In this document: positions 1,198 to 37,332 of the stretch, piece after piece
Position numbering within the stretch: position 1 is the first letter of the stretch
Layout: the number at the start of each line of letters is the position of its first letter
NCBI GenBank assembly: GCA_020072565.1
Contig: JAIQGI010000043.1
Span: 1 to 59,736 of the forward strand
Source of the DNA: Terriglobia bacterium
GTDB taxonomy: Bacteria > Acidobacteriota > UBA6911
DNA: 59,736 bases
Direction of reading: 5' to 3'
Made by a program: the position numbers and the translations under genes
Notes under the pieces: model-generated
What the model saw: only the letters and a program-made list of their open reading frames with translations
The model's database searches: none
What the model was told of the DNA's origin: nothing

Positions 1198-1200
1198 GAC

Positions 1201-8914: not shown

Positions 8915-8980
8915 CTCCCGCGCTAGTTACAATCAGGGGGATTATTCAGGACAGTGCAGCTGAACGCAGTTCTTAATTGC

Positions 8981-12590: not shown

Positions 12591-12597
12591 GGAGGAC

Positions 12598-15189: not shown

Positions 15190-15321
15190 GGCGGGAGACC
15201 GCCCGTGGCACTCTTGCGGGAATGGCTGGTAGTAACGCTGTTGTCGTCGAACGCGCCGGTCGTCCCATCAACCGGCTCACCCGTGACGTGAACATCAGCG
15301 CCACGCTTCTTCGGAGGTCGC

Positions 15322-15720
15322 ATGTCAGTTGTCCTTTCATCCGTCCTGTTGTGCCTGACCATGTCCGTTTCATCTCCGCAGACCGCATCCAAGCCGGACC
15401 CCCGCGAGAAGGTCGAAACGGCGATCGGTGCGGCTATTCACCTCCTTGAATTGAAGGACTACAAGACATTCTTGCTGCAGTTCGTCCCGCCCGATCAGGT
15501 CAAGGCGCGTGGTGGATCACCCGAGGCATTGGACGCATGGATTGAGTATTTCTCTGCCCAGGCAGACAGTATCCTTGCGGCACTTAAGGACGCCAGGACG
15601 CAGACTCCAACCTACGATGCCGCGAAGATCACGGCCACTTTCCCGTTGAAGGGAGAGGCTGGCCCGAAGTCGCTGAAGATGGCGAAAATCGGTCAATTCT
15701 GGTATATCGGGAACAAGTAG
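15322..15720 (+). CDS. Small secreted protein after ADOP 1, 132 aa
   Basis: The first 20 residues form a signal peptide (MSVVLSSVLLCLTMSVSSPQ). The mature part is helical at first (EKVETAIGAAIHLLELKDY) and ends in strands with IGQFWYIGNK, like small exported accessory domains that end in a W-Y-I strand. Function is unknown. It lies 132 bases behind ADOP 1 on the same strand. Small exported proteins recur behind other ADOP genes here. Confidence 0.7.
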   Translation: MSVVLSSVLLCLTMSVSSPQTASKPDPREKVETAIGAAIHLLELKDYKTFLLQFVPPDQVKARGGSPEALDAWIEYFSAQADSILAALKDARTQTPTYDAAKITATFPLKGEAGPKSLKMAKIGQFWYIGNK

Positions 15721-15894
15721 CGGGTAGTACTCGCAGCGGTCGAATCCTCAAGCGCCGTCTGCGCCGGCATGTGGGATTCCTGGCTTGCCCTCTAACTTGG
15801 GGGTCGTCGGAATGAGCGACATGCCTTCGGTTACCGGGGACATAATAGGACCTTTACCTGAAAGCAAGTAGAATCCCGCTTCAGTTGATTTCCG

Positions 15895-15924
15895 TTGACA
15901 CGATCGCGCGGCAGGGCGTACATT
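15895..15924 (+). promoter_or_regulatory. Candidate promoter of PadR gene 2
   Basis: TTGACA at 15895-15900 and TACATT at 15919-15924 with an 18-base spacer. GAGAGAGG precedes the start codon at 15955. Confidence 0.5.
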
Positions 15925-15954
15925 CCTCTCGACACCCGAGAGAGGATACCTTTC

Positions 15955-16290
<336 letters not shown>

Positions 16291-16310
16291 AAACACCCAA
16301 CGGGGGCCGG

Positions 16311-18959: not shown

Positions 18960-19013
18960 TCCGTTGGGCGAAACTCCGCCCGGCCGGATTCCGATCTTTC
19001 TTGGGAGAAGATC

Positions 19014-19400
19014 ATGCTCAAAAAGAGGATAGTTCTGATTTGGCTTGTTGCGGCGACCGTCATTCCCTATGCCCTGCCTCAGACCAAAAACGGGACCGGG
19101 AATGCCAATATCAGCGGCGTTTGGGAATTAACCTGGACTTCGAACAACCGGACTGGGGACCTTGCCTTCGTGCAGGACAAGCAAGCCCTGAAAGTCACAT
19201 TGAAACCACCCGACGAAGTAGCGATTACCGGCACAGGAACCATCAAGGCCAACGTGGTCGAATGGTCGATGACCGCCAGCGGCCCGCGTGGCAATCTCAA
19301 GCTGGCATTCAAGGGCAAGGTAGAAGGCGAGACAATGTCCGGAGAAGCCCAGATGGGCGACACAGGAACCTACGCATGGACGGCGAAGAAGAAGAAATGA
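19014..19400 (+). CDS. Small secreted beta-rich protein after ADOP 2, 128 aa
   Basis: The signal peptide MLKKRIVLIWLVAATVIPYA is followed by a beta-rich domain with alternating strands (ISGVWELTWTSNNRTGDLAF, VTLKPPDEVAITGTGTIK, GETMSGEAQMGDTGTYAW) and a lysine tail. The G-x-W then repeated T-G-T-I pattern resembles the small lipocalin-like exported proteins common in Acidobacteriota. The role is unknown; position suggests co-expression with ADOP 2. AGAAG sits ten bases before the start. Confidence 0.75.
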   Translation: MLKKRIVLIWLVAATVIPYALPQTKNGTGNANISGVWELTWTSNNRTGDLAFVQDKQALKVTLKPPDEVAITGTGTIKANVVEWSMTASGPRGNLKLAFKGKVEGETMSGEAQMGDTGTYAWTAKKKK

Positions 19401-19433
19401 TCCTCAAGAAATCGGGGGAATCACGCTCATTGA

Positions 19434-21929
19434 TTACTCGTAGCGCAAAACTTCCGCCGGATCTACACGCAGGGCACGTCTCGCCGGCACGACCGCAGCC
19501 AGAAGGGCAACAAAAAAGAGGATGCCGAAGCCTGCTGCATAGCTGATCGGATCGAGATTGCTCATGCCAAACAGAAGAGCACGAAGGGCACCAGAGAGTG
19601 CGATTGCAGCGACAAGTCCAGCTGTGCCCCCTGCCAGAATGGGCCACGTCATTGACGCCAGAGCAATCCGCAGGATCTGGCCGGAATCCGCACCGAGCAC
19701 CCTGCGAATGCCGATCTCTCGTGAACGTTGGGAGACCGTGTACATTGCCAGGCCGAATACACCCACCGCAGCCAGGACCAAGGCAAGCGTTCCGAGCGCA
19801 CTGAGAGCAAGCGCGATGACAACCGTGGCCTGAGTGACCTTCTGAAAGGCGGCAGTCATCGTACTGAGCTCCAGAACGACCTTGGCGTCGACGGAGTTTG
19901 CAGCGGCATTCAACAAGGCAGGGAGCCGGTCATTTTCGCCGTCATATCGTACGACCAGGGTTGCTGCATTGGCCTCTCCTTCGGTAAGTGGCTGGTAGAG
20001 TTCGACGCCTTCCTCGCCCAACAACCGCCACGCACGCGTGCTTTCCGCAATGCCGACAACGGTTTGCTTACCTGCGTAGATTCTGCCCAGTGCGTCTTGC
20101 CCAGGCCAAACCGCACGCGCCATAGCCTCGCTTACGATGACGACATTTCGATCACCCGCTTCGAAGCCGCGGCCTCGCAAAATGCGTATGCCCATGGTTC
20201 TGAAGTAGTCGGGATCTGCTTCGACAATATGCACTACACTCCCGTTCTCTGGCAGCCTGACTGTTGTCCTTGTCTGCCCGAAAGGAACTGCAATTGCTGC
20301 GGAAACCGCCACGACTCCCGGGATACCCCGCAAGCGGATTTTCATGTCCTCAATATATGCTTGCGCGCGTGCGGCGCTGTAACTATGGGTTCGGAAATGC
20401 GGATTGACAATCATCAGACGCGTGTAATCGATTCCCGGATCTTGGAAGGTTATGCGCGCGGCACTCTTTGCCAGCAGGCTTGCGAGGATCACCAGGATGC
20501 AACTGCCTGCAATCTGCACACCCAGCAGCCCCACACGAGCTCGCGAAGCCCGCACCGCCGAGCATGATATTCCCAATGCCGGAGTTAGCCCGAATATCAG
20601 CAGGGAGAGCAATGCCAGCGACGCTGTAAACAGTATTACCCGCCAGTCCAGCGATAGCCTGATTGGTTGAGACCCGGAAACAACCGTGAACACCCGCGCC
20701 CCTGCATAGCCAAGTAATGAACCTGCTGCGGCACCAAGTGACGCTAGTAGCAGACTTTCTGTTAACATTTGGCGCACAATGCGCTTCCGATCGGCTCCGA
20801 TCGCCATCCGGATGGCAATTTCGCGCTGCCGGCAAAGGCCTCGAGCGATGAGCAGCGTCCCCAGGTTGCCGCAAGCCACCAACAGCACGAGGAGCACGAG
20901 GAAGGTCGCCATGGCAATCATCGGAATGGCTCTTTCAGGGATATTCGCCCTGGCGCCCGGCACGGCTTTAAGCCATTCTCCTGCCCAAACCTTGGTAGTA
21001 TCTTGGGCACCGCGCAGCGAAGCGAGAGAATTCAAAGCCTGCTCTGCCGCCACCGGTGTCGTGTCAGGTTTCAAACGCCCATACATTAAAATCGCACTGG
21101 ACTTGCTATCATCCAGGAGGCGGCTGTCTGACACGAAGCGAGGATGCTGAACAATCGGCAGCCAACCGTCAGCAGGGAGTGCCGGGGAGAGCCCGACGAA
21201 GTCCTCGGGTAATACTCCCGCGACAACTACCTTCTGGTTGTTTATTGTGATCGTGGTGCCAATGACCGCAGGATCGCTGCTGAAGCGCCTTGTCCAGAAA
21301 GTGTAGCTCAGTACAACACGCGGATCTGCGCCGCGATTGTCGTCAATGTACGGATCGAAAAGCAGACCGCGAACCGCTCGGGCGCCGAGTTCATGAAAGT
21401 AGTTGGCGCTGACAAATTGAGCTCGGACCCGCTCCGTTCCCTCTTGCCCGAAAGTCATTTCCTGATCGACCCGCGCCATCAGGGCCGAAAACACTCCGCT
21501 GTGCTGCCTATAGAATTCGAAGTCGGGATAGGGGATCGCGGTTGACATGGCGCGCGGGCTGTACCGTACCAAGCGGTAGATCGTGTCCGGGTCACGAACT
21601 GGAAGTGGCTTCAGGTACACTGCATTGAGCAGGTGAAATGCACCGATGTTGACGCCCATGCCCAGCGCCAGGACGCAAACAGCTGAAAGCGTGAAGCCCG
21701 GAAACTTCCGTAGCATTCGTACACCGTACGAGAGATCCTGCCCCAATCGGTCAATCCACATCCAACCCCAAGCTTCGCGTGCATCTTCGCGTAATCGCAG
21801 GATGTTGCCGAAGTTGGCGCGCTCTTCATAGGCCATACTATCGCGGTGCGCTTTCATCTCAGCCTCGAGTTCATGGTCAAACTTGTGGCGGCGGATCAAG
21901 TAATATACTCGGCGGAGAAGTTCGCGCAT
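19434..21929 (-). CDS. ADOP permease 3, 831 aa
   Basis: Minus-strand duplicated permease. The start is put at 21929 (MRELLRRVYYLIRRHKFDHE) with GAGG nine bases upstream; the longer in-frame start at 21971 would overlap the PadR gene. The N-terminal segment has HELEAEMKAHRDSMAYEE. The first helix is LALGMGVNIGAFHLLNAVYL, more divergent than in the other copies. C-terminal blocks are MYTVSQRSREIGIRRVLGA and VVPARRALRVDPAEVLRYE. It ends 33 bases from the convergent secreted-protein gene. Confidence 0.9.
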   Translation of the reverse strand: MRELLRRVYYLIRRHKFDHELEAEMKAHRDSMAYEERANFGNILRLREDAREAWGWMWIDRLGQDLSYGVRMLRKFPGFTLSAVCVLALGMGVNIGAFHLLNAVYLKPLPVRDPDTIYRLVRYSPRAMSTAIPYPDFEFYRQHSGVFSALMARVDQEMTFGQEGTERVRAQFVSANYFHELGARAVRGLLFDPYIDDNRGADPRVVLSYTFWTRRFSSDPAVIGTTITINNQKVVVAGVLPEDFVGLSPALPADGWLPIVQHPRFVSDSRLLDDSKSSAILMYGRLKPDTTPVAAEQALNSLASLRGAQDTTKVWAGEWLKAVPGARANIPERAIPMIAMATFLVLLVLLVACGNLGTLLIARGLCRQREIAIRMAIGADRKRIVRQMLTESLLLASLGAAAGSLLGYAGARVFTVVSGSQPIRLSLDWRVILFTASLALLSLLIFGLTPALGISCSAVRASRARVGLLGVQIAGSCILVILASLLAKSAARITFQDPGIDYTRLMIVNPHFRTHSYSAARAQAYIEDMKIRLRGIPGVVAVSAAIAVPFGQTRTTVRLPENGSVVHIVEADPDYFRTMGIRILRGRGFEAGDRNVVIVSEAMARAVWPGQDALGRIYAGKQTVVGIAESTRAWRLLGEEGVELYQPLTEGEANAATLVVRYDGENDRLPALLNAAANSVDAKVVLELSTMTAAFQKVTQATVVIALALSALGTLALVLAAVGVFGLAMYTVSQRSREIGIRRVLGADSGQILRIALASMTWPILAGGTAGLVAAIALSGALRALLFGMSNLDPISYAAGFGILFFVALLAAVVPARRALRVDPAEVLRYE

Positions 21930-21939
21930 CGCGGCATCC

Positions 21940-22266
21940 TCAAGCAGTTCTGAGAATAGTTTGGATGGCATTCGTGGTCTGCTCGTACTCGGAGAGCTTG
22001 CTATCCAATTGCCTGTGCCCAGCCGGGGTCAGTCGATAAAACCGAACGCGGCGGTTTGTGTCCGAGATTCCCCATGCCGCCTTGACATAGCCCTTCCTCA
22101 ACATGCCCTCGAGAGCCGGATAAAGGGAGCCTTCTTCGACTTTCAAAACATCGCCAGAGAGACTGTGAATCCGCTGGGCAATGGCGTAGCCATGGAGCGG
22201 TTCTGATTTGAGCACTCGCAAAACTAGCATTGTGAGTGCACCTTGTGGCATGTCTATCTTAGGCAT
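21940..22266 (-). CDS. PadR-family repressor 3
   Basis: 108 residues: MPKIDMPQGALTMLVLRVL, SEPLHGYAIAQRI, EEGSLYPALEGMLRKGY, DTNRRVRFYRLTPAGHRQL. It is more divergent than PadR 1, 2, 4 and 5, especially in helix 2. It ends ten bases before ADOP 3 and is preceded by the palindrome TACCTAGGTA, probably its own operator. Confidence 0.9.
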   Translation of the reverse strand: MPKIDMPQGALTMLVLRVLKSEPLHGYAIAQRIHSLSGDVLKVEEGSLYPALEGMLRKGYVKAAWGISDTNRRVRFYRLTPAGHRQLDSKLSEYEQTTNAIQTILRTA

Positions 22267-22310: not shown

Positions 22311-22444
22311 GAAGAAAATGCGTAAAATGCGATTCAACCCAGTGTTTATCCAAGATCGAAACCGCCTCAGTCTGCTCGGCGCATCCTCTGGGCACGCATG
22401 GGAGTAAATAATTGATAATTAAAGAGTTGTGTAAGCTTATTAGA

Positions 22445-22473
22445 TTGACAATGCATTGTCACCCTGATAAGAT
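22445..22473 (+). promoter_or_regulatory. Element promoter A with CAATGCATTG operator
   Basis: TTGACA at 22445-22450, exactly 17 bases, then TAAGAT at 22468-22473. The palindrome CAATGCATTG at 22449-22458 overlaps the -35 box by two bases, so a bound protein would block RNA polymerase. The eight bases before it (TTATTAGA) are identical in promoter B at 26325. It drives the gene block starting at 22499. Confidence 0.8.
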
Positions 22474-22498
22474 CTAAGCATAACGGAGGTGAAAACAA

Positions 22499-22756
22499 AT
22501 GAACGAGATGACGGTTGAACAGAAAGTCAGGGTGGCGCGGAAGGCGATCGACAAGTTAATGGAGACCATACCGCTGGATGTCAATGGCTTCGAGATTGAC
22601 GCCAATTTTGTTCGGCGGTTCCGATCGGTGCTTCGCGCGCTGCACCTATCCTTTCACGATTTCGCGGAGACGATGGACTTTATCATCCAGATCGAATTCG
22701 CCCATGACGCCTATTCGTCCGCTTTCGATCAGTTCCTTTTCTGCACGGCAGCCTGA
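22499..22756 (+). CDS. Small element protein, 85 aa (paralogue of 26382 gene)
   Basis: Unknown family. GGAGGT at 22485-22490 sets the start. It shares with the 26382 gene the pattern MTVEQKVRVARKAIDKLM, then RRFRSVLRALHLSF, FAETMDFIIQIE and the identical end FCTAA. It is all helical with no cysteine cluster, membrane segment or catalytic motif. It is the first gene after operator promoter A, as its paralogue is after promoter B, so it may be a regulatory or DNA-associated component of the element. Confidence 0.75.
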   Translation: MNEMTVEQKVRVARKAIDKLMETIPLDVNGFEIDANFVRRFRSVLRALHLSFHDFAETMDFIIQIEFAHDAYSSAFDQFLFCTAA

Positions 22757-22768
22757 GGGGCGCACTCC

Positions 22769-24073
22769 ATGAAAGCCACTTACAGGATCCCGGAGCAGAA
22801 CCTGGAAGAACTTAGAGGCAGAATCGAGAAGCTGAACCGGCGATGCGCCCGGATCGGGGTATCCCCCATTACGTTGACGGTCGCGGGCGAGGAGATGGTG
22901 GTCGAGAAAAAGTTCGTCCAGCGCGCTTTCACTGAAGACGAGATCCTTTGGGGTGGGGCCGGCGGATCGATGGTCGACAGCTTTCGCAAGGTTTTTGAAA
23001 TCAAGGTCGAGGGCGAGACGCCAAAATACGAAGGCTGGGAATTCGTGGCGGTCATCCAGCACGAGGAGGCGGGTAACATCCTGCGGACGGTGCCGGGATT
23101 CGAGGGCGAAATCCCTCTGCAATACCGGACGGCGCAAAGATGGTGCGACTACTGCCAGATCGACCGGGGCTGGAAGGACACATACCTGATCCGCCACGAG
23201 GACGGGACCTGGAAGCAGGTCGGTCGCAATTGCCTGAAGGACTTCATGGGCCACGCAAACCCGCATCAGCTTGCGGAATTCGCCGAAATCCTGATCGACC
23301 TCGGCGATCTGTGCGCGAGCGCACGCGACGACGACTGGATGGGAGGCAGGGAGCGGATTGCGCGGTCCTGGGCGATTGAAACGTGGGTGGCGATCACAGT
23401 GGCCTACATCCGTACCGACGGCTGGGTCAGCAGGAAGGAACAGGACCTCAAGATGGTGCCCGCGACGGTCGGCCGCGTGTTCAATCACGTGAACCCGCGG
23501 TTCACAGGAAAGCGGGCGGAGGTAATCGATTCCGACTACGCCGAAGCCAAGGCCGCAATCGAGTGGGCGCGTAACCTGCCTGCCGACCTCAACAGTGACT
23601 ACCTATGGAACCTGCGGGTTGCCTGCTCGAGCGACTACGTCAGCGCCAGAGCCACCGGGATCGTATGCTCGCTGATTGTGAGCTATCGGCGGGCGATGGA
23701 GCGCGAGATTGAACGCCGGAGGCGGTTTCAGAGCGACAAGGACAGCGAATATTTCGGCGAGGTCGGCAAGCGAGCCGTCTACGAGCTGACCGTGACCTTC
23801 ACCAAGGAAATCGACAGCAACTACGGGTTAATGACGCTCGTGAAATTCCGCGATCGGAACGGCAACGTGGCCACGTGGTTTGCTTCCGGCCGCCCGGATT
23901 GGTTCCAGATGGGGATGACGCACAAGGTGAAGGCAACCGTGAAGAAACACGAACTTTACCATGGCGTCAAGCAGACGATCCTCACCAGAGTGGCCGAGGT
24001 CAAGCCGAAACCAATTGTTCCTGAGTACACGGAGGTGTTGGCGGCTGAGGAAGCGATGGCTCTCGGGCTGTAG
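22769..24073 (+). CDS. Zinc-knuckle plus OB-fold-like protein, 434 aa
   Basis: The largest protein of the small-gene block. Near residues 124-160 it has RWCDYCQIDRGWKDTYLIRH and KQVGRNCLKDFMG, a C-x2-C knuckle with a further Cys; closely similar blocks occur in hypothetical proteins of large actinobacteriophages and plasmids. Residues about 320-415 (AVYELTVTFTKEIDSNYG, LVKFRDRNGNVATWFASG, HKVKATVKKHELYHGVKQ) follow the strand pattern of an OB fold, so nucleic-acid binding is likely. Catalytic residues are not recognised. It follows the 22499 gene by 12 bases. Confidence 0.8.
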   Translation: MKATYRIPEQNLEELRGRIEKLNRRCARIGVSPITLTVAGEEMVVEKKFVQRAFTEDEILWGGAGGSMVDSFRKVFEIKVEGETPKYEGWEFVAVIQHEEAGNILRTVPGFEGEIPLQYRTAQRWCDYCQIDRGWKDTYLIRHEDGTWKQVGRNCLKDFMGHANPHQLAEFAEILIDLGDLCASARDDDWMGGRERIARSWAIETWVAITVAYIRTDGWVSRKEQDLKMVPATVGRVFNHVNPRFTGKRAEVIDSDYAEAKAAIEWARNLPADLNSDYLWNLRVACSSDYVSARATGIVCSLIVSYRRAMEREIERRRRFQSDKDSEYFGEVGKRAVYELTVTFTKEIDSNYGLMTLVKFRDRNGNVATWFASGRPDWFQMGMTHKVKATVKKHELYHGVKQTILTRVAEVKPKPIVPEYTEVLAAEEAMALGL

Positions 24074-24122
24074 CAATCGATCGCTCCCGCCAGCTTCCGG
24101 GCGGCGGGGCAGGAGGTACGCG

Positions 24123-24488
24123 ATGAGATACAACGTTCACATTTTTGCGGTTGTCCGGGTGAAGGTGCCGGACGTTGAGGCCGTGTCACATCAGGACGCG
24201 ATCAAAAAGGCAGTCGAGAGCACAGACCTGAATGAGGTGTTCGATCGAGTGAGCCCCGTGCCCGGCGTCGAACATACCGAATACGGTGAGGAGATCTCTC
24301 ACTACCTGGTGGACGAGGTCGGCGACGAGGAGTGCCGGCGCTCGACCTTCTACCAGGATGCTCGCCACCTTGAGGTGATCAGCAACGACAAGTCAGAAGG
24401 CATCGAGGTCTACTCAGAGGAGCCGGAGCCTGCGGATCTTGACTCTGGGACCAGGGCAGGAGGTTATCAGCATGAACGGCTTTCCTAA
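24123..24488 (+). CDS. Small acidic element protein, 121 aa
   Basis: The start is ATG 24123 after GGCAGGAGG. MRYNVHIFAVVRVKVPDVEA opens a beta strand, then a helix DAIKKAVESTDLNEVFDRV. The layout resembles small alpha/beta proteins of plasmids and phages. The C-terminal third is strongly acidic. Function is unknown. The end overlaps the next start at 24472. Confidence 0.7.
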   Translation: MRYNVHIFAVVRVKVPDVEAVSHQDAIKKAVESTDLNEVFDRVSPVPGVEHTEYGEEISHYLVDEVGDEECRRSTFYQDARHLEVISNDKSEGIEVYSEEPEPADLDSGTRAGGYQHERLS

Positions 24489-24672
24489 CCTGGCCGAAGG
24501 TGAAACGCAGATTGTCCGGGTCGTCGAGCCCTGTGGCTGCATTGCCTGCAAGGATGGCAGTCCGTGGTTTATGTGCAGGGATCCCCGAGAAATCGCCCGC
24601 TATGAAGTCGCCAGCTCGAGAGCCATCAAGATCATCCGCGAGCTGCACCCTGGCAAGGACCTGGTTTATTAA
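24472..24672 (+). CDS. Small cysteine-containing element protein, 66 aa
   Basis: ATG 24472 follows GGCAGGAGG. MNGFPNLAEGETQIVRVVEP is followed by CGCIACKDG and FMCRDP, giving four cysteines in a spacing compatible with one zinc site. Unknown function. It overlaps the upstream gene by 17 bases. Confidence 0.65.
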   Translation: MNGFPNLAEGETQIVRVVEPCGCIACKDGSPWFMCRDPREIARYEVASSRAIKIIRELHPGKDLVY

Positions 24673-24688
24673 ATGGAGGCCGATTTCA

Positions 24689-24901
24689 GTGATTACAGTC
24701 TACTGCGGTTATCAAAAGAAGGGCCGGCGCTTCAAGCTCACCTCCGACAAGGATTGCCTGCCGCCGGACATCGACTACTACAGTGAGCGCGCGCTGCTGG
24801 ACATGGAGGCGGTCAGGGCATGCGTCGAAGCGCTTGAACGCGCCGGGTTTGCCGTGTGCGCCGATTTTGGAGAGTGGTTCTACGAAACCGATGCCGCCTG
24901 A
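24689..24901 (+). CDS. Small element protein, 70 aa
   Basis: The start is GTG 24689 with GGAGG nine bases upstream. The protein begins MITVYCGYQKKGRRFKLTSD and continues with the helix LDMEAVRACVEALERAGFAV. It is compact and alpha/beta. No known family is recognised. Its end overlaps the next candidate start. Confidence 0.6.
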   Translation: MITVYCGYQKKGRRFKLTSDKDCLPPDIDYYSERALLDMEAVRACVEALERAGFAVCADFGEWFYETDAA

Positions 24902-25130
24902 AAACGGCCAACACGGAGATTTGCATGGAACGCAAACAGGTCAATCTGAGGCAGTGGATGGAGGCAAATCTAATCTACGCCAGGAGTGGCTGCAGGCCGG
25001 CGTCGAATTGGACGACTCTTCGAGAATTGCGCTGAACTGGGCGTATGCGTTCAAGGATGCAGGCGCTCACATCACCGACGTGCAAATCCTCAAGGTATAC
25101 GAATCGATGACAGAAGGGAGCAGAGCATGA
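24891..25130 (+). CDS. Small element protein, up to 79 aa
   Basis: The reading frame ends LNWAYAFKDAGAHITDVQIL then KVYESMTEGSRA and looks coding from about residue 25 onward. The start is uncertain: ATG 24891 overlaps the previous stop but lacks a ribosome site, and GTG 24954 is an alternative. A second frame opens at ATG 24925 (MERKQVNLRQWMEANLIYA) with GGAG upstream but stops after 36 codons, so a frameshift between the two is possible. The end overlaps the next gene by four bases (ATGA). Confidence 0.5.
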   Translation: MPPENGQHGDLHGTQTGQSEAVDGGKSNLRQEWLQAGVELDDSSRIALNWAYAFKDAGAHITDVQILKVYESMTEGSRA

Positions 25131-25468
25131 AACTCAAACAAATCATTGAGATCGCGGATCGGGCATACAGCGACGACGGCGCCGTAGCAAGGGCTTTCGA
25201 GGCGGAGACGGGTTCCATTGACGAGTTGCTGGTCGGCGATTCGCTGGCAGTCTTCATCGCCAGGGAAATCAAAGAGACCTACGACCCCGACGCTGCCAGG
25301 GAGCAACAGCTTGGCGAGGCCTACCGGGTAATGTCGGTTGCCCACGAGCAACTTGAGAACGTGCTAAACGCCCTAGCCATGGCAAGCACAAAGCGCCCAT
25401 CGAAAAGCGCGGCGATGCGGATTCCTGGGATCAACGACAAACGAGCGCACAAAGGAGGGATCGCATGA
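25127..25468 (+). CDS. Element protein, helical, 113 aa
   Basis: ATG 25127 overlaps the preceding stop. It starts MKLKQIIEIADRAYSDDGAV and is predominantly helical, with a basic tail (KRPSKSAAMRIPGINDKRAH). Unknown function. The stop overlaps the next gene by four bases, so it is translationally coupled on both sides. Confidence 0.7.
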   Translation: MKLKQIIEIADRAYSDDGAVARAFEAETGSIDELLVGDSLAVFIAREIKETYDPDAAREQQLGEAYRVMSVAHEQLENVLNALAMASTKRPSKSAAMRIPGINDKRAHKGGIA

Positions 25469-25815
25469 GCAACGACAATTGGGAAGGGGAGGAAGTAATC
25501 TCCGTCTACGACGACTGCCAGGCGATCGAAGATGGCGTCATCGTGGACATCTCCGAACTGGGTCTAGACTTCCGAGGCCGGCCACTCAATCGCATAACCC
25601 GTGGCCTGTGGGACGACTTCCAGCCCTTCATCACCTTCGAGAGCACCTTCCCGGGATTACAGGCTCCGACGCCGATGGAGGAGCTGAAAAAGATCATGCG
25701 TACGAAGCTCCGGCTTGCATCGCACGAGGGCGGCATTTGGAAACTCCCGCCGGGATTGTGGCTGATCGAGAACGAAGTGCACGGATGGACAGTGATGAAA
25801 CCAGAGGAGTATTGA
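25465..25815 (+). CDS. DUF6573-like element protein, 116 aa
   Basis: The core ISVYDDCQAIEDGVIVDISE followed by NRITRGLWDDF resembles the small family annotated as DUF6573 in phages and plasmids (pattern Y-x-x-x-x-A-I-E-D-G-x-x-V-D then R-x-x-W). Biochemical role unknown. This is recall of a family pattern, not a search. The end WLIENEVHGWTVMKPEEY reads as two strands. It overlaps the upstream gene by ATGA. Confidence 0.72.
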   Translation: MSNDNWEGEEVISVYDDCQAIEDGVIVDISELGLDFRGRPLNRITRGLWDDFQPFITFESTFPGLQAPTPMEELKKIMRTKLRLASHEGGIWKLPPGLWLIENEVHGWTVMKPEEY

Positions 25816-25817
25816 CC

Positions 25818-26030
25818 ATGAGAGAAACTGAGCAGAAGCACCGCCACTATCTGTCGATTGACGAGACTGGCAGGTGGTCACTCATTATTTACGATAGCCT
25901 GCCAATGTGCGCACCGACCGCCGAAGGGAACGCCAGAGCGCTATGGATAAGGTTTCGCGAGAGCAACCGCCATCTGGAACTGCCGGAAGTTCCGCCCGTG
26001 TGGGATGGCGCATATGGCGCTTTCAGATAA
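25818..26030 (+). CDS. Small element protein, 70 aa
   Basis: ATG 25818 follows GAGGAG. The sequence MRETEQKHRHYLSIDETGRW and SLIIYDSLPMC suggests a short beta-rich domain; the tail is ELPEVPPVWDGAYGAFR. Unknown function. Confidence 0.6.
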   Translation: MRETEQKHRHYLSIDETGRWSLIIYDSLPMCAPTAEGNARALWIRFRESNRHLELPEVPPVWDGAYGAFR

Positions 26031-26068
26031 AAAAGAACTGCTGGAACCAGAGGAATACCAGGAGGGGT

Positions 26069-26305
26069 ATGAAAAAGATCGAGGATCTGACGACTGAAGA
26101 ACTTAGAGAGATTTTGAGTGCGGTGCAGGAGATCCTGTATCTGGACATCACCTATTCTGAGGGACTGGGCGAAGATGTCGAAGCCTGGAATCCGCACAAG
26201 GAATGGGAAATCGAGACCCTGGATGCCATCGCATTTCAACTAAGAGCCCATGGGCTGGAGCCTGAAGAAGAACTTGAGAGGGCAGAAAAAAACGACAAGG
26301 CCTGA
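26069..26305 (+). CDS. Small acidic element protein, 78 aa
   Basis: AGGAGGGG directly precedes ATG 26069. MKKIEDLTTEELREILSAVQ then LDAIAFQLRAHGLEPEEELE indicates two helices; it is highly acidic. Unknown function. A 27-30 codon frame (26005 or 26014 to 26097, MALSDKKELLEPEEYQEG) overlaps its start and has coding-like composition but no clear ribosome site. Promoter B begins 20 bases after the stop. Confidence 0.65.
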   Translation: MKKIEDLTTEELREILSAVQEILYLDITYSEGLGEDVEAWNPHKEWEIETLDAIAFQLRAHGLEPEEELERAEKNDKA

Positions 26306-26324
26306 TTTCTCTTGCTTTATTAGA

Positions 26325-26353
26325 TTGACAATGCATTGGCAATCCGATAGAAT
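26325..26353 (+). promoter_or_regulatory. Element promoter B with CAATGCATTG operator
   Basis: TTGACA at 26325-26330, 17 bases, TAGAAT at 26348-26353, and the palindrome CAATGCATTG at 26329-26338. The flank TTATTAGA before it is the same as in promoter A. It drives the paralogous gene at 26382. Confidence 0.82.
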
Positions 26354-26381
26354 TAGATCATAAAATCAGGAGAAAAAGACA

Positions 26382-26663
26382 ATGAAAAACACCCAGGCGC
26401 AGCAGATGACGGTGGATCAGAAGGTTCGGGCGGCCCGCAAGGCGATTGACAGGCTGATGGTGGCAGAGGCTGACATGATCGAGAGGATGGACTGCGAGGT
26501 GGCGGCGTTTCAGACTGTCCGGCGCTTCCGGTCGGTTCTGCGGTCCTTGCACCTCAGTTTCAGGCAGTTCGCGGAAGCCATGGACGGCCTGATCCGCATC
26601 GAACTCAGCCGCGGAAACGACTCGGTGGCCCTGGACCAATTCTATTTTTGCACGGCAGCGTAA
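26382..26663 (+). CDS. Small element protein, 93 aa (paralogue of 22499 gene)
   Basis: AGGAG at 26368-26372 sets the start. MTVDQKVRAARKAIDRLM, RRFRSVLRSLHLSF, FAEAMDGLIRIE and the ending FCTAA match the 22499 protein closely; the middle is longer by eight residues. The same operator-promoter precedes both, so promoter and gene were duplicated together or come from related elements. Function is unknown. Confidence 0.75.
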   Translation: MKNTQAQQMTVDQKVRAARKAIDRLMVAEADMIERMDCEVAAFQTVRRFRSVLRSLHLSFRQFAEAMDGLIRIELSRGNDSVALDQFYFCTAA

Positions 26664-26706
26664 AACGCGCCCCTGGCCGGAGCGGCAGACAGTTATGGAG
26701 ACTCAC

Positions 26707-26955
26707 ATGGCATACGACGTGAAGAAGGACATTACGGTTGCGAGCAGGGTGGCGCTCAATGACGGGACGAACACCCTGATCGTGTGCATCCAGCGGTACA
26801 ACGGCGGCGAGCCCAAGATCCAAATCTCGCGGACGGTGAAGCTCAACAACGGCGAGACCCAGTACGTGAAACAGGGCAGGCTGACGTTCGCGGAGTGGGA
26901 AGCAGTGAACAAGGCGGTCGGCGAGATGCAAGCCGAACTGAAAGCAGCGAAATAA
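26707..26955 (+). CDS. PC4-like single-stranded DNA-binding domain protein, 82 aa
   Basis: The start is taken at ATG 26707 with GGAG upstream; an in-frame ATG lies at 26695. The strand order ITVASRVALNDGTNTLIVCI, GEPKIQISRTVKLNNGE, QGRLTFAEWEAVNKAV looks like the PC4/YdbC fold: antiparallel strands with Y-x-G-G-x-P-x-I then R-L-T-x-x-E-W before a final helix. Such proteins bind single-stranded DNA as dimers. This is a resemblance in pattern, not a confirmed hit. The location in an element with ssb and RadC-like genes supports a DNA role. Confidence 0.7.
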   Translation: MAYDVKKDITVASRVALNDGTNTLIVCIQRYNGGEPKIQISRTVKLNNGETQYVKQGRLTFAEWEAVNKAVGEMQAELKAAK

Positions 26956-26966
26956 CGAGGGGCATG

Positions 26967-27323
26967 ATGCCAAGAGGAATGTTGGTTTCAATCCTAAAGG
27001 ACAGCGACGGCTGCGACTGCACGAACCATGGCGTGACCTCGCGGATCAAGGAGGCGGTCCTGGTCGGCGCCGGGATTCCGGAATTGGCTGAAGCCAGTCC
27101 AGACCTCCCTGTCCTGTACGTCTATCCGTGGTGTGGGCACTTCAAGGCATCGCCGGAAGCAGCCATCGGTTTTGAGGAAGTCAGCGGCAGGCATGTGGCG
27201 AACGGGAAGATTCCCATATTCGAGCATCAATGGATGTTCGGCGGCAATTGGGTTTGGTCGTCGGACTCGCGATTTCCGGCAGTGGCACCGATCCCGGTTC
27301 ACGACAGGAGGGAAGGTCAATGA
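26967..27323 (+). CDS. Element protein, 118 aa
   Basis: GAGGGG at 26957-26962 favours the second of two adjacent ATGs (26967). MPRGMLVSILKDSDGCDCTN begins a short cysteine motif (DGCDCTNHG), and LPVLYVYPWCGHFKASPEA adds C and H. The domain is unrecognised. It ends with a four-base overlap into the next gene. Confidence 0.65.
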   Translation: MPRGMLVSILKDSDGCDCTNHGVTSRIKEAVLVGAGIPELAEASPDLPVLYVYPWCGHFKASPEAAIGFEEVSGRHVANGKIPIFEHQWMFGGNWVWSSDSRFPAVAPIPVHDRREGQ

Positions 27324-27535
27324 TTCGCGCAATTGATCCAGTCACGGAGATCGAGGCAAAGGGCCGCAACGGATACTTCAAGGTGGCACGCGCCGTGACC
27401 TTTGCCACCGAGGATGGGAAGTACGCTGACATCTGCTTCTACTCCAAGAGACAGGGCGACAGCGCCCCCCTAATCATCAAAGGGGAGCCGGCAGCCCTTA
27501 AGGCCCTTCTCGGTTTGCTTTACAACAGCATTTAG
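27320..27535 (+). CDS. Small element protein, 71 aa
   Basis: ATG 27320 overlaps the upstream stop; GGAGGGAAGG lies before it. MIRAIDPVTEIEAKGRNGYF, AVTFATEDGKYADICFYSKR and EPAALKALLGLLYNSI give strands then a helix. Unknown function. Confidence 0.65.
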   Translation: MIRAIDPVTEIEAKGRNGYFKVARAVTFATEDGKYADICFYSKRQGDSAPLIIKGEPAALKALLGLLYNSI

Positions 27536-27547
27536 GGGGGTGCAGTG

Positions 27548-27751
27548 ATGGCCGCACTAAGTCGCTTACGACGATATCAGATTCATGGCAGACGGTTACT
27601 TTGCCACCCTGAATGTATCAGTGGATTCCGCGAGGACCGGCGGGCCGGTCTGATCTACGGCCCATACATGCTCAGCAATGGCAGGTTCGCGAAAGATGCA
27701 GAAGAGGCGTCACGGAAAGAGCGGTTCTGCCCCTACTGCGGTCGAAGATAG
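27548..27751 (+). CDS. Small zinc-ribbon protein, 67 aa
   Basis: GGGGGG precedes ATG 27548 (a GTG start at 27545 is equally possible). LLCHPECISGF and the C-terminal RFCPYCGRR provide four cysteines in a zinc-ribbon arrangement. The N-terminus is basic (SRLRRYQIHGRR). A nucleic-acid or protein-binding role is likely but unproven. Confidence 0.7.
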   Translation: MAALSRLRRYQIHGRRLLCHPECISGFREDRRAGLIYGPYMLSNGRFAKDAEEASRKERFCPYCGRR

Positions 27752-27753
27752 GG

Positions 27754-28017
27754 ATGGCGACCAAAATGGACGCACGAACAAGAAGGCAGATCAATTGTGA
27801 GTTATTCGACCTGACCCGCACGAATCCGACGCTGGGAATCGGCATCGGCCAGACGATCGAGATCATCCAGAAGCACCTGGGCGAGGACGCGGCGGATGTC
27901 GTGGCCGGAATCTACTGTGGCGAATTTGGCGAATCCCGCGAAATCATCCCCGGGCACAACTCTGCGCTCGTCCTCCAGTGGGGCTATAAGCGACTCGAAG
28001 TAGCCTACGTAAGCTGA
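27754..28017 (+). CDS. Element protein, 87 aa
   Basis: ATG 27754 is two bases after the previous stop. MATKMDARTRRQINCELFDL and GQTIEIIQKHLGEDAADVVA suggest two to three helices; the tail QWGYKRLEVAYVS is strand-like. Unknown function. Last gene of the first small-gene block. Confidence 0.6.
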   Translation: MATKMDARTRRQINCELFDLTRTNPTLGIGIGQTIEIIQKHLGEDAADVVAGIYCGEFGESREIIPGHNSALVLQWGYKRLEVAYVS

Positions 28018-28076
28018 GGATTCAGGCGGGCTGGCAGAATCGAGTGCTCGGGCGTCCGCAGAGCAGGCAATTACAG

Positions 28077-28281
28077 TCATGATCGAAAGGAGGTTCCAGA
28101 AACAAACTGACCAATTGCAATAATTCCCACCAACAACCCGCACCAAACCACCGCAGCAAGACCCGCAGGCCATCGCGCCTGCGGTTCCCCTGTCGCGTCC
28201 AGCAGAGCGAGTGTCAACATAGTGCTCGAGCGGAATGGCCAGGCCCTCCTGCCGATAGACTGCCTTCCAATCAGTGGTCAC
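28077..28281 (-). pseudogene. Decayed small membrane protein gene
   Basis: The minus-strand frame from GTG 28281 (MTTDWKAVYRQEGLAIPLEH) loses coding character after YVD. The adjacent frame takes over with TLALLDATGEPQARWP and a membrane helix AGLAAVVWCGLLVGIIAIG, ending at 28077. The frames join only by a frameshift near 28217. Its GTG overlaps the upstream remnant's last stop by four bases (GTGA), a relic of translational coupling. A 47-residue protein from ATG 28220 is the alternative. Confidence 0.4.
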
Positions 28282-28980: not shown

Positions 28981-29316
28981 ATGACCCAATCAAAATCCGA
29001 AGTTCTGCAAGGCACGCTGGATCTGCTCGTGCTGAAGACTCTCGAATCTTTGGGGCCTATGCACGGGTGGGGTGTGGCGAGGCGCATCCAACGGGTATCG
29101 GAGGACGCGCTCCAGTTATCCCAGGGGACCATCTATCCTGCGCTGTTGCGTCTGGAGCAGCGCGGCTGGATTCTCGCCGAATGGGGCACCTCGGAAAACA
29201 ATCGGAAGGTACGGTTCTACACCATCACCAAGGCGGGACGCCGGCAGCTTCGCGAGGAAACCGCGAGCTGGGAACGCATGATGGCGATCATCAATCGTGT
29301 ACTTGAAGGCGCATAG
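28981..29316 (+). CDS. PadR-family repressor 4
   Basis: 111 residues: MTQSKSEVLQGTLDLLVLKT, GPMHGWGVARRIQRVSED, SQGTIYPALLRLEQRGW, SENNRKVRFYTITKAGRRQL. It is almost identical in layout to PadR 5 and to the relic at 48478. The start is ATG 28981 after AGGAGAG. ADOP 4 begins 12 bases after the stop. Confidence 0.92.
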   Translation: MTQSKSEVLQGTLDLLVLKTLESLGPMHGWGVARRIQRVSEDALQLSQGTIYPALLRLEQRGWILAEWGTSENNRKVRFYTITKAGRRQLREETASWERMMAIINRVLEGA

Positions 29317-29327
29317 TGGGAGGAAAA

Positions 29328-34048: not shown

Positions 34049-34086
34049 AAAAATCAGCAAATAACGACAAGTCCCGACACAATCGA

Positions 34087-34115
34087 TTGACAATGCATTG
34101 ATATATCGTTAGAAT
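34087..34115 (+). promoter_or_regulatory. Element promoter C with CAATGCATTG operator
   Basis: TTGACA at 34087-34092, 17 bases, TAGAAT at 34110-34115, palindrome CAATGCATTG at 34091-34100. It drives the radC-like operon. Transcription would begin around 34122, where a 21-codon frame (34122-34187, MNNQKFQTNIQGRLW) opens and overlaps the radC-like start. Confidence 0.82.
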
Positions 34116-34162
34116 GAGGGCATGAACAATCAGAAATTCCAAACAAACATTCAGGGGAGATT

Positions 34163-34639
34163 ATGGACGCCAAAGCCGAGGTTCTGAGGCAGTACCGCAT
34201 TCCTTGTTACAGAGTCTCCTTGGTACGTGAAGGCTCGGTTGCTTCTCCGCACCAGAGGTTCAGCAATTCGCGAGAAGTCTTTGAGATCATGCGACCGCTC
34301 ACGCGGGATTTGGATCGGGAGCACTTCATCGTTCTCATGCTCGATTCGAAAAACAAGCTGATCGGCATGAACACCGTATCGGTCGGCTCGATAAGCACCT
34401 CGGTCGTGCACCCCAGGGAGGCAGCCAAACCGGCAGTGGTCCACAACGCAGCGGCAGTCATCGGGATCCACAACCATCCGAGTGGGGATGCAACTCCCTC
34501 TATCGAAGATCGGCAGTGCACCGAAAGGCTGGCGCAGGCATTCAAACTGCTGGGCATTCGGCTCTTGGATCACATCATCATCGGCGAGTCCGATTACTTC
34601 AGTTTTGCCGATGCTGGATTGCTCGGGCATGGGGAGTGA
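34163..34639 (+). CDS. radC: RadC-like JAB/MPN-domain protein, 158 aa
   Basis: The short, element-type RadC: one JAB metalloprotease-like domain without the N-terminal helix-hairpin-helix of chromosomal RadC. Metal motif GIHNHPSGDATPSIED near residues 101-116 gives H-x-H and the distal Asp. ILMLD-type strand FIVLMLDSKNKLIG and SVVHPREAAKPAVVHNAAA precede it, as in the family. GGGGAG lies eight bases before ATG 34163. Such genes are frequent on plasmids and islands; the enzyme activity is unproven, with suggested DNA-repair or anti-restriction roles. First full gene after promoter C. Confidence 0.88.
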   Translation: MDAKAEVLRQYRIPCYRVSLVREGSVASPHQRFSNSREVFEIMRPLTRDLDREHFIVLMLDSKNKLIGMNTVSVGSISTSVVHPREAAKPAVVHNAAAVIGIHNHPSGDATPSIEDRQCTERLAQAFKLLGIRLLDHIIIGESDYFSFADAGLLGHGE

Positions 34640-34645
34640 GCGCAA

Positions 34646-34915
34646 ATGAGAATGACGATCGAGGTTGAAATGAGTAACGCTGCCTTTACTGAGGATGGCC
34701 CTGGGTCCGAGAGTCACGAGGCAGCCCGGATTCTCCGGGATCTGGCTGGCAGGATCGAATGCCATCCGCACTTCTCGCCCGGGCTCACGCAGGCATTGCA
34801 CGACATCAACGGAAATAACGTGGGACGCGTCGATGTTCGTGGAGATCGAGTCCAGACCTCTCTGCCAGTCAATCAGACACTGGGGATCCACTCAACGATG
34901 GAGTCGAAGAGATGA
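34646..34915 (+). CDS. Small plasmid-type protein, 89 aa
   Basis: MRMTIEVEMSNAAFTEDGPG then EAARILRDLAGRIECHPHF follows a pattern common in short plasmid and phage proteins (M-x-I-x-I-x-V-D-x-x-N-A-A-F, then A-R-I-L-R-x-L-A-x-x-I). Function unknown. It starts six bases after the radC-like stop and overlaps the next gene by four bases. Confidence 0.72.
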   Translation: MRMTIEVEMSNAAFTEDGPGSESHEAARILRDLAGRIECHPHFSPGLTQALHDINGNNVGRVDVRGDRVQTSLPVNQTLGIHSTMESKR

Positions 34916-35205
34916 TGACCAGGATCGACATTGAGATTGACAGGCACGAGGCGGCAATCGAGGCCGGCCAACTCCCGGCGTATTGCCCGTTTTGCGAGGA
35001 CACAGATTACGCATGGGTGCGGTGTGAACAGTGCGGCGCCCGGGTGTGCGAGCACTGCGCCGTCTCAATTGATGCCACCGGCCATCTGTGCCCGGTCTGC
35101 GCCCAGGAATCAGCCTGCGAAGAATGTGGCTGCGTGGGCGGCGATCACTTCCCGAGCTGCGCTTTTTTTGAATCTGTAACGGTTGACAATGCATTGGCCG
35201 TGTGA
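34912..35205 (+). CDS. Multi-zinc-ribbon protein, 97 aa
   Basis: Six C-x2-C-type pairs or half pairs are seen: YCPFCED, RCEQCGARVCEHC, LCPVCAQ, ACEECGC. This suggests two or three zinc sites in a B-box or RING-like array. Its last codons (TVDNALAV) contain the fourth copy of TTGACAATGCATTG, so the coding end doubles as an operator for the next gene. Partner or nucleic-acid binding is likely. Confidence 0.75.
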   Translation: MMTRIDIEIDRHEAAIEAGQLPAYCPFCEDTDYAWVRCEQCGARVCEHCAVSIDATGHLCPVCAQESACEECGCVGGDHFPSCAFFESVTVDNALAV

Positions 35206-35214
35206 GGAGAGAAT
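35183..35214 (+). promoter_or_regulatory. Fourth CAATGCATTG operator, inside a coding end
   Basis: TTGACA at 35183-35188 and the palindrome CAATGCATTG at 35187-35196 lie within the final codons of the upstream gene. At the 17-base position the sequence is GGAGAG, which also serves as ribosome site for 35218; a poor -10 candidate GAGAAT is at 35209-35214. It may act mainly as a binding site rather than as a strong promoter. Confidence 0.6.
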
Positions 35215-35217
35215 GCG

Positions 35218-35547
35218 ATGCCCTTCGAACTGGAAACTTGTGGGTGGTGCGGCCTGCCAGATCCCGAACACAGGAGCGAGTGCCCATATGGCCGGGCTTG
35301 GGAAGATCGGACCGTCTACAAAGGTTTCCGGGTGTCGGACCTCCGCAAAGTCTTCAACAAGCTGGCGAACCCGCAAGACTGGAGGGGCCCGATCGCGGCA
35401 TCGATGCCAGGCGAAGCCGTGCTGGGCGCCTGCGCAGCCATCGAATATTGCACGGCCACGCTTCCCCGGGTGTGTCTGGACACGCGAACGATGACCTACG
35501 TGGTTACGAGCGAAGGCTACCGAATGGGGCCGGCAGGCGATCACTGA
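35218..35547 (+). CDS. Zinc-binding element protein, 109 aa
   Basis: MPFELETCGWCGLPDPEHRS with ECPYG supplies C-x2-C, H and C ligands at the N-terminus. The remainder (DLRKVFNKLANPQDWRGPIA, MTYVVTSEGYRMGPAGDH) is alpha/beta and unrecognised. GAGGAG precedes the start. Confidence 0.72.
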   Translation: MPFELETCGWCGLPDPEHRSECPYGRAWEDRTVYKGFRVSDLRKVFNKLANPQDWRGPIAASMPGEAVLGACAAIEYCTATLPRVCLDTRTMTYVVTSEGYRMGPAGDH

Positions 35548-35561
35548 GACCGGAGCGAGCA

Positions 35562-36233
35562 ATGCAAGTGCAGTTGATTTCGTGGAACCGGAAGAAGCAG
35601 CGATCGATGGCTCACATGATCGCGACCGGCGGCGCGAAGACGCTCTGCGACAACATACCTGGAACCGGGACCGGGCCAGCCGGTTTAAACCAATATCCGC
35701 TCTGCCGCTGTTGCGTGGTGAAGGCTCGAAAGTTGGGGGTCCCGACGGAGTTTGTGCCTATTGTACCGGCGCCGCCAACGCCGAGACTATTGAAGTCGCC
35801 CGGCAAGAAGAAACCGTTTCTGCCTAATCCATACAAGAACATCCTGTGCGCGATTCAGTATCTCGGCGGCATCAATCCGCGCAAGCTCCGAAGGGCGGGC
35901 TGGTGGACGGAGTTTTATGAGTTTTTGCCGGCCAGTATCCGGCGGCGCATCTTTCGGCACGCCAGCACGAACAGCGTCGACTCGATCGCCACGGAACTTG
36001 CCGGGTACGGCTATCCGGTGGAGGACGCCGACAGCCTGCTCGAGTACCTGAAAGACCAGAAGAAGGTCAACTGGTCTCAGGAACCGCAAGAAGTGCAGAT
36101 GACGAACGAAGACTACCTGGAACTGCGCATCAACGAACTGCTGATAGAGAACGAGGCGCTCCGGCAGCAAATCGAGAACCTGACCCGGGCGGAGGGATGC
36201 TTCGATCCGGTTGAAATGGAGGAGCCATTTTGA
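35562..36233 (+). CDS. Unknown element protein, 223 aa, coiled-coil end
   Basis: The start is ATG 35562 with GGAG upstream. Cysteines in LCDNI and PLCRCCVVKARK may bind metal. A helical middle (YKNILCAIQYLGGINPRKLR, SIRRRIFRHASTNSVDSIAT) precedes a C-terminal coiled coil (ELRINELLIENEALRQQIEN). The shape suggests a DNA-binding or scaffolding protein, but no family is recognised. It overlaps the next gene by four bases (TTGA). Confidence 0.7.
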   Translation: MQVQLISWNRKKQRSMAHMIATGGAKTLCDNIPGTGTGPAGLNQYPLCRCCVVKARKLGVPTEFVPIVPAPPTPRLLKSPGKKKPFLPNPYKNILCAIQYLGGINPRKLRRAGWWTEFYEFLPASIRRRIFRHASTNSVDSIATELAGYGYPVEDADSLLEYLKDQKKVNWSQEPQEVQMTNEDYLELRINELLIENEALRQQIENLTRAEGCFDPVEMEEPF

Positions 36234-36427
36234 GAATCGACGAATTGGCACGCGAGATGACCGAAGCACAGACCCGGCAGCGCGAAATGGTACGCAGCGA
36301 GGTCGTCAACCGGGTGCTCCGTGCGCCCGAAACCCCAAATCAGAGCAAACGAACCATGCTTGGTTTGGATCGAAAGCGGCGGCCGCAAAAATCGGCGCCG
36401 ATGTTTGAAGACAAGGGGCTTTTCTAG
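36230..36427 (+). CDS. Small basic element protein, 65 aa
   Basis: TTG 36230 overlaps the previous stop; GGAGG nine bases earlier supports the unusual start. Helix RIDELAREMTEAQTRQREMV is followed by a basic, probably disordered tail (LDRKRRPQKSAPMFEDKGLF). Unknown function. Confidence 0.6.
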   Translation: MRIDELAREMTEAQTRQREMVRSEVVNRVLRAPETPNQSKRTMLGLDRKRRPQKSAPMFEDKGLF

Positions 36428-36436
36428 GGAGGAGTC

Positions 36437-37111
36437 ATGTCATTACCAGCAGAGGAGTTTCAGTCATTTGCAAAAGCGATCGCGGCTGAGTTGGGCTGGA
36501 CGTACCGCGAACGGGAAGCGGATAGACGGGACAGCGCGGATATCGATGGCCCCGATGGGATGAAGCTTTATCTGAACAACGGCTACTGGGATCACAGCCG
36601 AATCACAATCATGGGGAGCAGGCCCCAACAGAAAAACGGCAAACATTTCAGCGTGAACTGGCCCGACAACCTCAGGATCACAGTCGCGCCGAATCGACCG
36701 GCTAAAGCGGTCGCCAAGGATATCGAGCGGCGGCTGCTCCCCAACTATCGCGTGGCATTTCAGAAAGCCTCTGACGACATTGCGGAGCGTCATGAGCAAC
36801 GGATGGAGGCAGAACGCATCGCCAACAACCTCGCCGGCATCCTCGGCTGCCAGGTCTCACAAAACAATGGAGCCGGCTCCGATTTCCAGATTCATCCCCG
36901 CAACCTGAGGAACGGCTACGCAGACATCAAAGTCAGCGAGTACTCGAACGAAGTGGAAATCAACCTGCGCTGGATCTCCGCGGAGCTTGCGGAACGCGTT
37001 TGCGCTGTCCTGAAACAGGAGGTATGTCACGAGCCCGCAATGGAAGCAATAGCAGAGCGAGCGAATCGTGGAGAGCATGAAGCCGAAGAATCTCAGGGAG
37101 CACGAGCATGA
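36437..37111 (+). CDS. Unknown element protein, 224 aa
   Basis: GGGAGGAG precedes ATG 36437. An N-terminal alpha/beta part (EEFQSFAKAIAAELGWTYRE, MKLYLNNGYWDHSRITIMGS, LRITVAPNRPAKAVAKDIER) looks like one domain repeated weakly in the second half (QRMEAERIANNLAGILGCQV, GYADIKVSEYSNEVEINLRW). An internal duplication of a helix-strand-strand unit is therefore possible. No catalytic motif is seen. It overlaps the next gene by four bases. Confidence 0.7.
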   Translation: MSLPAEEFQSFAKAIAAELGWTYREREADRRDSADIDGPDGMKLYLNNGYWDHSRITIMGSRPQQKNGKHFSVNWPDNLRITVAPNRPAKAVAKDIERRLLPNYRVAFQKASDDIAERHEQRMEAERIANNLAGILGCQVSQNNGAGSDFQIHPRNLRNGYADIKVSEYSNEVEINLRWISAELAERVCAVLKQEVCHEPAMEAIAERANRGEHEAEESQGARA

Positions 37112-37332
37112 GACGTGTTAGCGCCAAACGGATAGAAGACTGGGAGGCAGAACTGGCGAGGATCGAGGACCAGATCCTGAAGAGTATTCGACGGGGGGAG
37201 GCGCGCCGCTTCGCGGCCCGGGCCGGTTGGAATCGGCATCAACGCCGCAACTGGTTGATTGATCACATCTCTTCCGCGAAAGCACAGAAAGTCGCATCTG
37301 CTTCCCATACGACCGCAGTACCAAACCCCTGA
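37108..37332 (+). CDS. Small basic element protein, 74 aa
   Basis: ATG 37108 overlaps the upstream stop. A helix EDWEAELARIEDQILKSIRR is followed by RFAARAGWNRHQRRNWLIDH, strongly basic with aromatic residues. Unknown function. Last gene of the second small-gene block. Confidence 0.62.
   Translation: MRRVSAKRIEDWEAELARIEDQILKSIRRGEARRFAARAGWNRHQRRNWLIDHISSAKAQKVASASHTTAVPNP

Follow-up and report, generated by a model that had tools for sequence, protein, structure and literature searches.

Two blocks of small genes in a Terriglobia bacterium are probably the early-gene region of a large temperate tailed phage carried as two related prophages

The DNA analysed here (the window, 59,736 nucleotides) is the entire contig JAIQGI010000043.1, termed C43, of the Terriglobia bacterium assembly GCA_020072565.1 (phylum Acidobacteriota; 7.46 Mb in 135 contigs, contamination 3.8%). 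Two blocks of small genes are found in it, block A at 22.4–28.2 kb and block B at 34.1–37.3 kb. Block A consists of 16 open reading frames of 58–434 codons, all on the plus strand, which occupy positions 22,499–28,017. The initial annotation had described a dense run of about 16 small genes with ATGA overlaps and strong ribosome sites, and the run itself is borne out. Good Shine-Dalgarno sequences are frequent and four-base ATGA overlaps are present at 25,127, 25,465 and 27,320, but the gaps elsewhere are mostly 2–80 bp. In addition, what was taken as one block appears to be two transcription units, 22.5–26.3 kb and 26.38–28.0 kb, each with one predicted promoter-operator of its own.

A second contig of the same genome, C21 (138.6 kb), carries both blocks as well. 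A blastn comparison of C43 with C21 shows matches at 22,417–28,220 and 34,085–37,269 with 77–88% identity and with order and orientation preserved; the main parts of the duplicated blocks share 83–88% DNA identity. Intact orthologues of 15 of the 16 block A genes are found in the same order on the minus strand of C21 (104,788–110,045), and the ratio of nonsynonymous to synonymous substitution rates (Ka/Ks) of these pairs is 0.03–0.26 (n = 15), which shows purifying selection. Block A is thus not chance open reading frame content, as 15 intact and ordered orthologues have low Ka/Ks values. The remaining gene, g9 (25818..26030, 70 amino acids), is present in the C43 copy only and falls in a 231-bp stretch without counterpart on C21. 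On C21 each of the eight block B genes likewise has an intact counterpart, with Ka/Ks values of 0.07–0.20 in seven of them and 1.09 in b6. The earlier proposal that block A and the 34.1–37.3 kb region form one unit therefore holds, since the two are duplicated together on C21 and have a common operator, described below.

The longest block A product is g2 (22769..24073, 434 amino acids), which matches the full-length profile of PHROG 2319, a family of unknown function, over residues 3–409 (E-value = 1.3e-79). Relatives of g2 are found in 370 phage records, including large phages, in 73 plasmid records and, with an alignment as query, in 118 IMG/VR stretches. As single-sequence queries, g2 and the block B protein b5 gave no match in IMG/VR. 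An alignment of 55 sequences shows invariant Cys126, Cys129, Val151-Gly152, Cys155-Leu156 and Asp158. The AlphaFold2 model (predicted local distance difference test score, pLDDT, 87) displays a C-terminal OB fold at residues 326–413, which aligns with OB folds that bind single-stranded DNA at Z of about 8 over 76–83 residues. The alignment and the model thus support a Cys motif and an OB fold in the zinc-knuckle/OB-fold protein noted initially, and the modelled fold makes it likely that g2 binds single-stranded DNA. A profile search of the PDB yielded chance matches only, and since Foldseek E-values against the PDB were all >0.01, we infer the function rather than assign it.

The other block A genes are given here with window coordinates (plus strand), length in amino acids and, where listed, Ka/Ks. 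In the first unit, g1 (22499..22756, 85, 0.08) is 87% identical to its C21 counterpart and is a paralogue of g11 (26382..26663, 93, 0.08) in the second unit. No family could be assigned to g1, g3 (24123..24488, 121), g4 (24472..24672, 66, 0.14), g5 (24689..24901, 70, 0.26), g6 (24954..25130, 58, 0.11), g7 (25127..25468, 113, 0.14), g10 (26069..26305, 78, 0.16) or g16 (27766..28017, 83, 0.08), or to the remaining block proteins not named below. Homologues of g3 and of the block B gene b7 are situated in a small-gene cluster of one unrelated 110-kb viral contig. g13 (26979..27323, 114) belongs to PHROG 6045 and has homologues in Brevundimonas (312–348 kb), Methylophilales and Vibrio phages, and g14 (27320..27535, 71, 0.03) is 99% identical in C21. 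Several names proposed at first found no firm support. The DUF6573-like protein, g8 (25465..25815, 116), matches PF20213 in residues 1–32 only, with 23.5 bits, which is below the Pfam cut-off of 27. g12 (26695..26955, 86), the supposed PC4-like protein, yields a low-confidence model (pLDDT 69) of four strands and one helix, without a convincing Pfam or PHROG match; PC4 is not among the listed fold matches (VIA-align), a comparison that excludes nothing with so weak a model. Of the zinc ribbons, a single sub-threshold match is left, in g15 (27545..27751, 68), which has a GTG start and a CPYC sequence at its C-terminus.

Block B, also on the plus strand, starts with b1 (34163..34639, 158 amino acids), a RadC-like JAB protein with 151.6 bits to PF04002 against a cut-off of 22.1 (E-value = 1.2e-44). 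It is followed by b2 (34646..34915, 89 amino acids), which belongs to PHROG 9027, and b3 (34912..35205, 97 amino acids, Ka/Ks 0.15), which is rich in cysteine and displays several CxxC motifs. No family was found for b4 (35218..35547, 109 amino acids, Ka/Ks 0.17) or b8 (37108..37332, 74 amino acids, Ka/Ks 0.20), and b5 (35562..36233, 223 amino acids) has no relative in the phage collection. b6 (36230..36427, 65 amino acids), with a TTG start and the Ka/Ks of 1.09, is a weak gene candidate; the homologue of b7 (36437..37111, 224 amino acids) in the 110-kb viral contig is a distant one.

A palindromic 14-mer, TTGACAATGCATTG, is shared by the regions upstream of g1, g11 and b1 and is also present within b3. 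It contains TTGACA, the −35 hexamer of the block A and block B promoters. The predicted promoter-operators, all on the plus strand, are situated at 22445..22473 for the first unit of block A (−35 TTGACA, 17-bp spacer, −10 TAAGAT, with the 14-mer as core), at 26325..26353 for the second unit (TTGACA, 17 bp, TAGAAT) and at 34087..34115 for block B (TTGACA, 17 bp, TAGAAT; degenerate in C21). The copy at the end of b3 (35183..35196, plus strand) shows no clear −10, and an identical 14-mer is found at C21 94062–94075; it is possibly a transcription roadblock or a promoterless operator. In the 7.46 Mb there are 13 exact copies of the 14-mer, six on C21, four on C43, two on contig C54, one on contig C58 and none on other contigs, where chance would give about 0.06 copies; the reversed sequence, used as a control, gives 0 copies. 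Every occurrence of the inner 10-bp palindrome, CAATGCATTG, in the contig stretches examined is one of these sites. At nearly all of them a sigma-70-like −10 is located 17–18 bp beyond the −35. When 395 further genomes from the phylum were scanned, the 14-mer turned up once in each of five and in none of the rest.

Six orthologous site pairs display identical 14-mers, although the flanks, in ungapped comparison, are 28–90% identical. The C21 orthologue of the 22,445 site, at 110,088, has an identical 14-mer with flanks of merely 38–42% identity, and the flanks of the copy in b3 are also poorly conserved relative to C21 (downstream 28%). Identity of the 14-mers despite diverged flanks points to selection on the site. 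A search of IMG/VR with the operator lengthened to 17 bp returned 16 contigs, of which 0 carry phage homologues; several of them share one unrelated promoter.

On C21 the two blocks lie on one strand with virion genes. This contig encodes an integrase (phrog_1, E-value = 1.8e-44), exonucleases, a tape measure protein (5e-45), a major capsid protein (3.6e-66), a scaffold protein (2.7e-41), a head morphogenesis protein, a portal protein (8e-136) and a terminase (1.8e-28), and also sliding clamp (9e-71), ParB-like, ParA (7.8e-38) and SSB (8.6e-53) proteins, the values in parentheses being those of PHROG matches. From the integrase to the outer edge of block A there are about 100 kb, and the right end is not reached. 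The left flank of the prophage is host-like, with no tRNA nearby. Parts of a second prophage colinear with C21 are found on C58, which carries the integrase-to-tape-measure part, and on C54, which carries the capsid-to-clamp part. C43 is most likely the remaining part of this second prophage, as its homology, operators and synteny suggest, with the structural and integrase genes lying on C54 and C58. Together C43, C54 and C58 have seven copies of the 14-mer, compared with six on C21.

The observation that no structural, integrase or replication gene is present thus stands for the block but is misleading, since the same prophages carry such genes elsewhere. Nor does the suggestion of an undescribed element type stand, as C21 has both blocks plus head, tail, packaging and integration genes. 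It is very improbable that blocks A and B belong to a conjugative plasmid, an integrative and conjugative element or some other new type of element. ParA and SSB are present and g2 has relatives on plasmids, where RadC-like genes are common, as they are on islands. However, relatives of g2 are also found in the 370 phage records, the virion genes are in the same unit as the blocks, and neither a PF03432 relaxase nor a PF02534 coupling protein, the two conjugation markers searched, is present in the whole genome. The prophage most likely represents a known kind of element. Taken together, the evidence makes it probable that blocks A and B form an accessory region, expressed early in the lytic cycle, of a large temperate tailed phage (Caudoviricetes) that is present as two related prophages, and that their operators are repressed in the lysogen.

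A candidate for the repressor is a 165-amino acid helix-turn-helix protein (C21 18,446–18,943), encoded not far from the integrase and divergently from an exonuclease operon that is driven by the operator. Its orthologues in C58 (10,937–11,440, 82%) and in the viral contig IMGVR_UViG_3300039307_000398 (5,123–5,614, 82%) are each situated beside an operator as well. The protein carries Pfam HTH_3 and in PHROG is most similar to transcriptional regulators and repressors (E-value = 1e-5 to 1e-3), with no match among deposited phages. The operon behind this operator codes for two exonucleases and a Gp3-like recombination directionality factor, a combination that fits a switch controlling excision. 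Position and co-conservation indicate that the helix-turn-helix protein is likely the repressor acting at the TTGACAATGCATTG sites. An unlikely alternative is that the 14-mer marks an activator site or a promoter class used in infection by a phage activator or a modified polymerase, in which case the blocks would be expressed at a middle or late stage without direct repression. In its favour, the motif spans the −35 hexamer and varies little from promoter to promoter. But a consensus −35 with a 17–18-bp spacer to a sigma-70-like −10 does not need an activator, the 10-bp palindrome is well suited to binding by a dimeric repressor, and a helix-turn-helix regulator with repressor matches in PHROG is found beside one copy in three phages.

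For a repressed early region, we infer repression, its timing and the roles of the proteins as follows. In the lysogen the 165-amino acid protein would bind the palindromic operator in the 14-mer and, as the operator holds the −35 hexamer at nearly all these promoters, would thereby keep RNA polymerase off six or seven dispersed sites simultaneously. Loss of the repressor would then switch on jointly the excision and recombination genes, the operons beside the ParB-like and methyltransferase genes, and blocks A and B. Of the block products, g2 and the RadC-like b1 would probably act in DNA metabolism, and the small uncharacterised proteins probably in host takeover or counter-defence. Downstream of one operator and adjoining the ParB-like gene, C21 70065–71645 shows a fusion of a phage DAM-like methylase with a phage GNAT-like domain.

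Both copies of the blocks are surrounded by cargo, consisting of defence genes and PadR/MacB-like permeases, and the blocks could themselves be read as an accessory or defence island expressed in lysogeny. This is quite improbable, as the order of the blocks is kept between the prophages whereas the cargo differs, and the blocks have the same operators as the excision/recombination operon. PADLOC gave no match for b1, the sole block protein tested.

Several points weigh against two repressed prophages of one phage group. Neither prophage has a −10 at the operator between b3 and b4, and on C21 one site is degenerate. Among free viral contigs, none was found to carry block A. No attachment sites and no prophage right end were found, and C21 and C43 break at a shared repeat. 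The links of C43 to C54 and C58 consist of the operator, synteny with C21 and homology, and not of contig overlap; joining C54 to C43 by overlap failed, the ends appearing to be different permease genes. Two prophages with the same operator and the same predicted type of repressor should be mutually immune, so that their coexistence needs explaining, and the assembly may be composite.

A close relative is IMGVR_UViG_3300039307_000398 (38 kb), which is colinear with C21 10–55 kb, in the left half of that prophage, and similar in capsid (92%), integrase (90%) and repressor (82%). It has the same operator ahead of the exonuclease operon and belongs to the same phage group, but it is a fragment that ends short of blocks A and B and has other cargo in a PadR/MacB slot. 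Further fragments match head genes at up to 96%. Neighbourhoods of g2 relatives were examined in 80 of the 118 IMG/VR stretches, and no other block gene was nearby except RadC in two of them and, in one, a short match to g13. A scan of genomes with a capsid alignment gave nine distant relatives (48–58%), and in the stretches examined none of these carries the operator, the repressor or any block gene. The prophage of genome G354 was considered as a relative; its head is related, but it gave no match to the operator, the repressor or any block gene.

Homology and synteny with a phage thus exist for the whole element within this genome, but no deposited isolate is syntenic with the block. Among deposited phages no close match to the prophage is found, the capsid being at most 45% identical. 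The nearest major capsid (43–45%) and portal (37%) sequences are those of Dinoroseobacter vB_DshS-R5C, R26L and Pseudanabaena phage Pan1, which are smaller (72–80 kb) and absent among the g2 matches listed. The best g2 relative among deposited phages (36%) is in Tunturiibacter phage Tunturi_5 (PP885688), near a few small uncharacterised genes, although the annotations of its neighbours there are unlike the other block genes. Tunturi_5 infects Acidobacteriota and is a 309-kb myovirus with a tail sheath, lytic as isolated (PMC11924767). The first phage isolates on Acidobacteriota were reported in 2025, together with proviruses in soil Acidobacteria (Demina 2025, group (i); PMC11924767), and Acidobacteria prophages were known before, including genomes that carry two (Eichorst 2018, PMC5900883). 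Sequences of these two sets of proviruses were not identified among the matches.

Immunity through dispersed operators is a feature of the C1 system of phage P1. It is also found in the stoperators of cluster A mycobacteriophages, which are asymmetric sites (PMC9283540, PMC6550527). As in these systems, many near-identical sites are spread across a large genome, mostly on promoters, with one intragenic and without a clear −10. Unlike stoperators, the predicted operator reported here is palindromic.

Among the neighbouring genes, a defence cluster occupies window positions 1599–5224 and 5828–10480, to the left of block A, with a Gabija pair (GajA 2.4e-221, GajB 1e-264), a type ISP restriction-modification enzyme and then a Schlafen-type ATPase. 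The matching place in C21 differs and holds a type III restriction-modification pair along with a protein of Piwi/pAgo-like type (L004 10414–12687, L005 6837–13332). Pairs of a PadR regulator and a MacB/FtsX-like permease are found among phage genes at window positions 12264–22266, 28981–32030 and 42037–51255, at C21 20712–23724 and 85835–91622, and on C58 and C54. One such slot is common to C21 and C58 and is occupied by other genes in IMGVR_UViG_3300039307_000398. The prophages may spread this paralogue family. C21, C43 and contig C5 all end at one shared repeat beside a cassette of three genes coding for a 48-amino acid protein, SSB and a DUF2256-like 67-amino acid protein (window 1–1233, C21 137171–138569, C5 222924–224098). 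All three copies are at contig ends near defence-type genes, and the C5 copy adjoins host-like genes. A tRNA-His (anticodon atg) called by ARAGORN at window 52626–52717 lies inside a long open reading frame of the opposite strand and is probably false.

As a wider and still doubtful suggestion, there may be a lineage of large temperate Acidobacteriota phages with one palindromic operator over the early promoters, a promoterless intragenic copy as roadblock, and variable PadR/MacB-permease and defence cargo, which would so spread host-type paralogue families. A prophage split over contigs by assembly can resemble a new type of element, and the operator motif is usable for locating its missing parts. 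A list of uncharacterised genes thus becomes a testable regulon of one predicted repressor, one operator and some two dozen block proteins encoded by a few operons, and such a regulon would be unusually easy to test.

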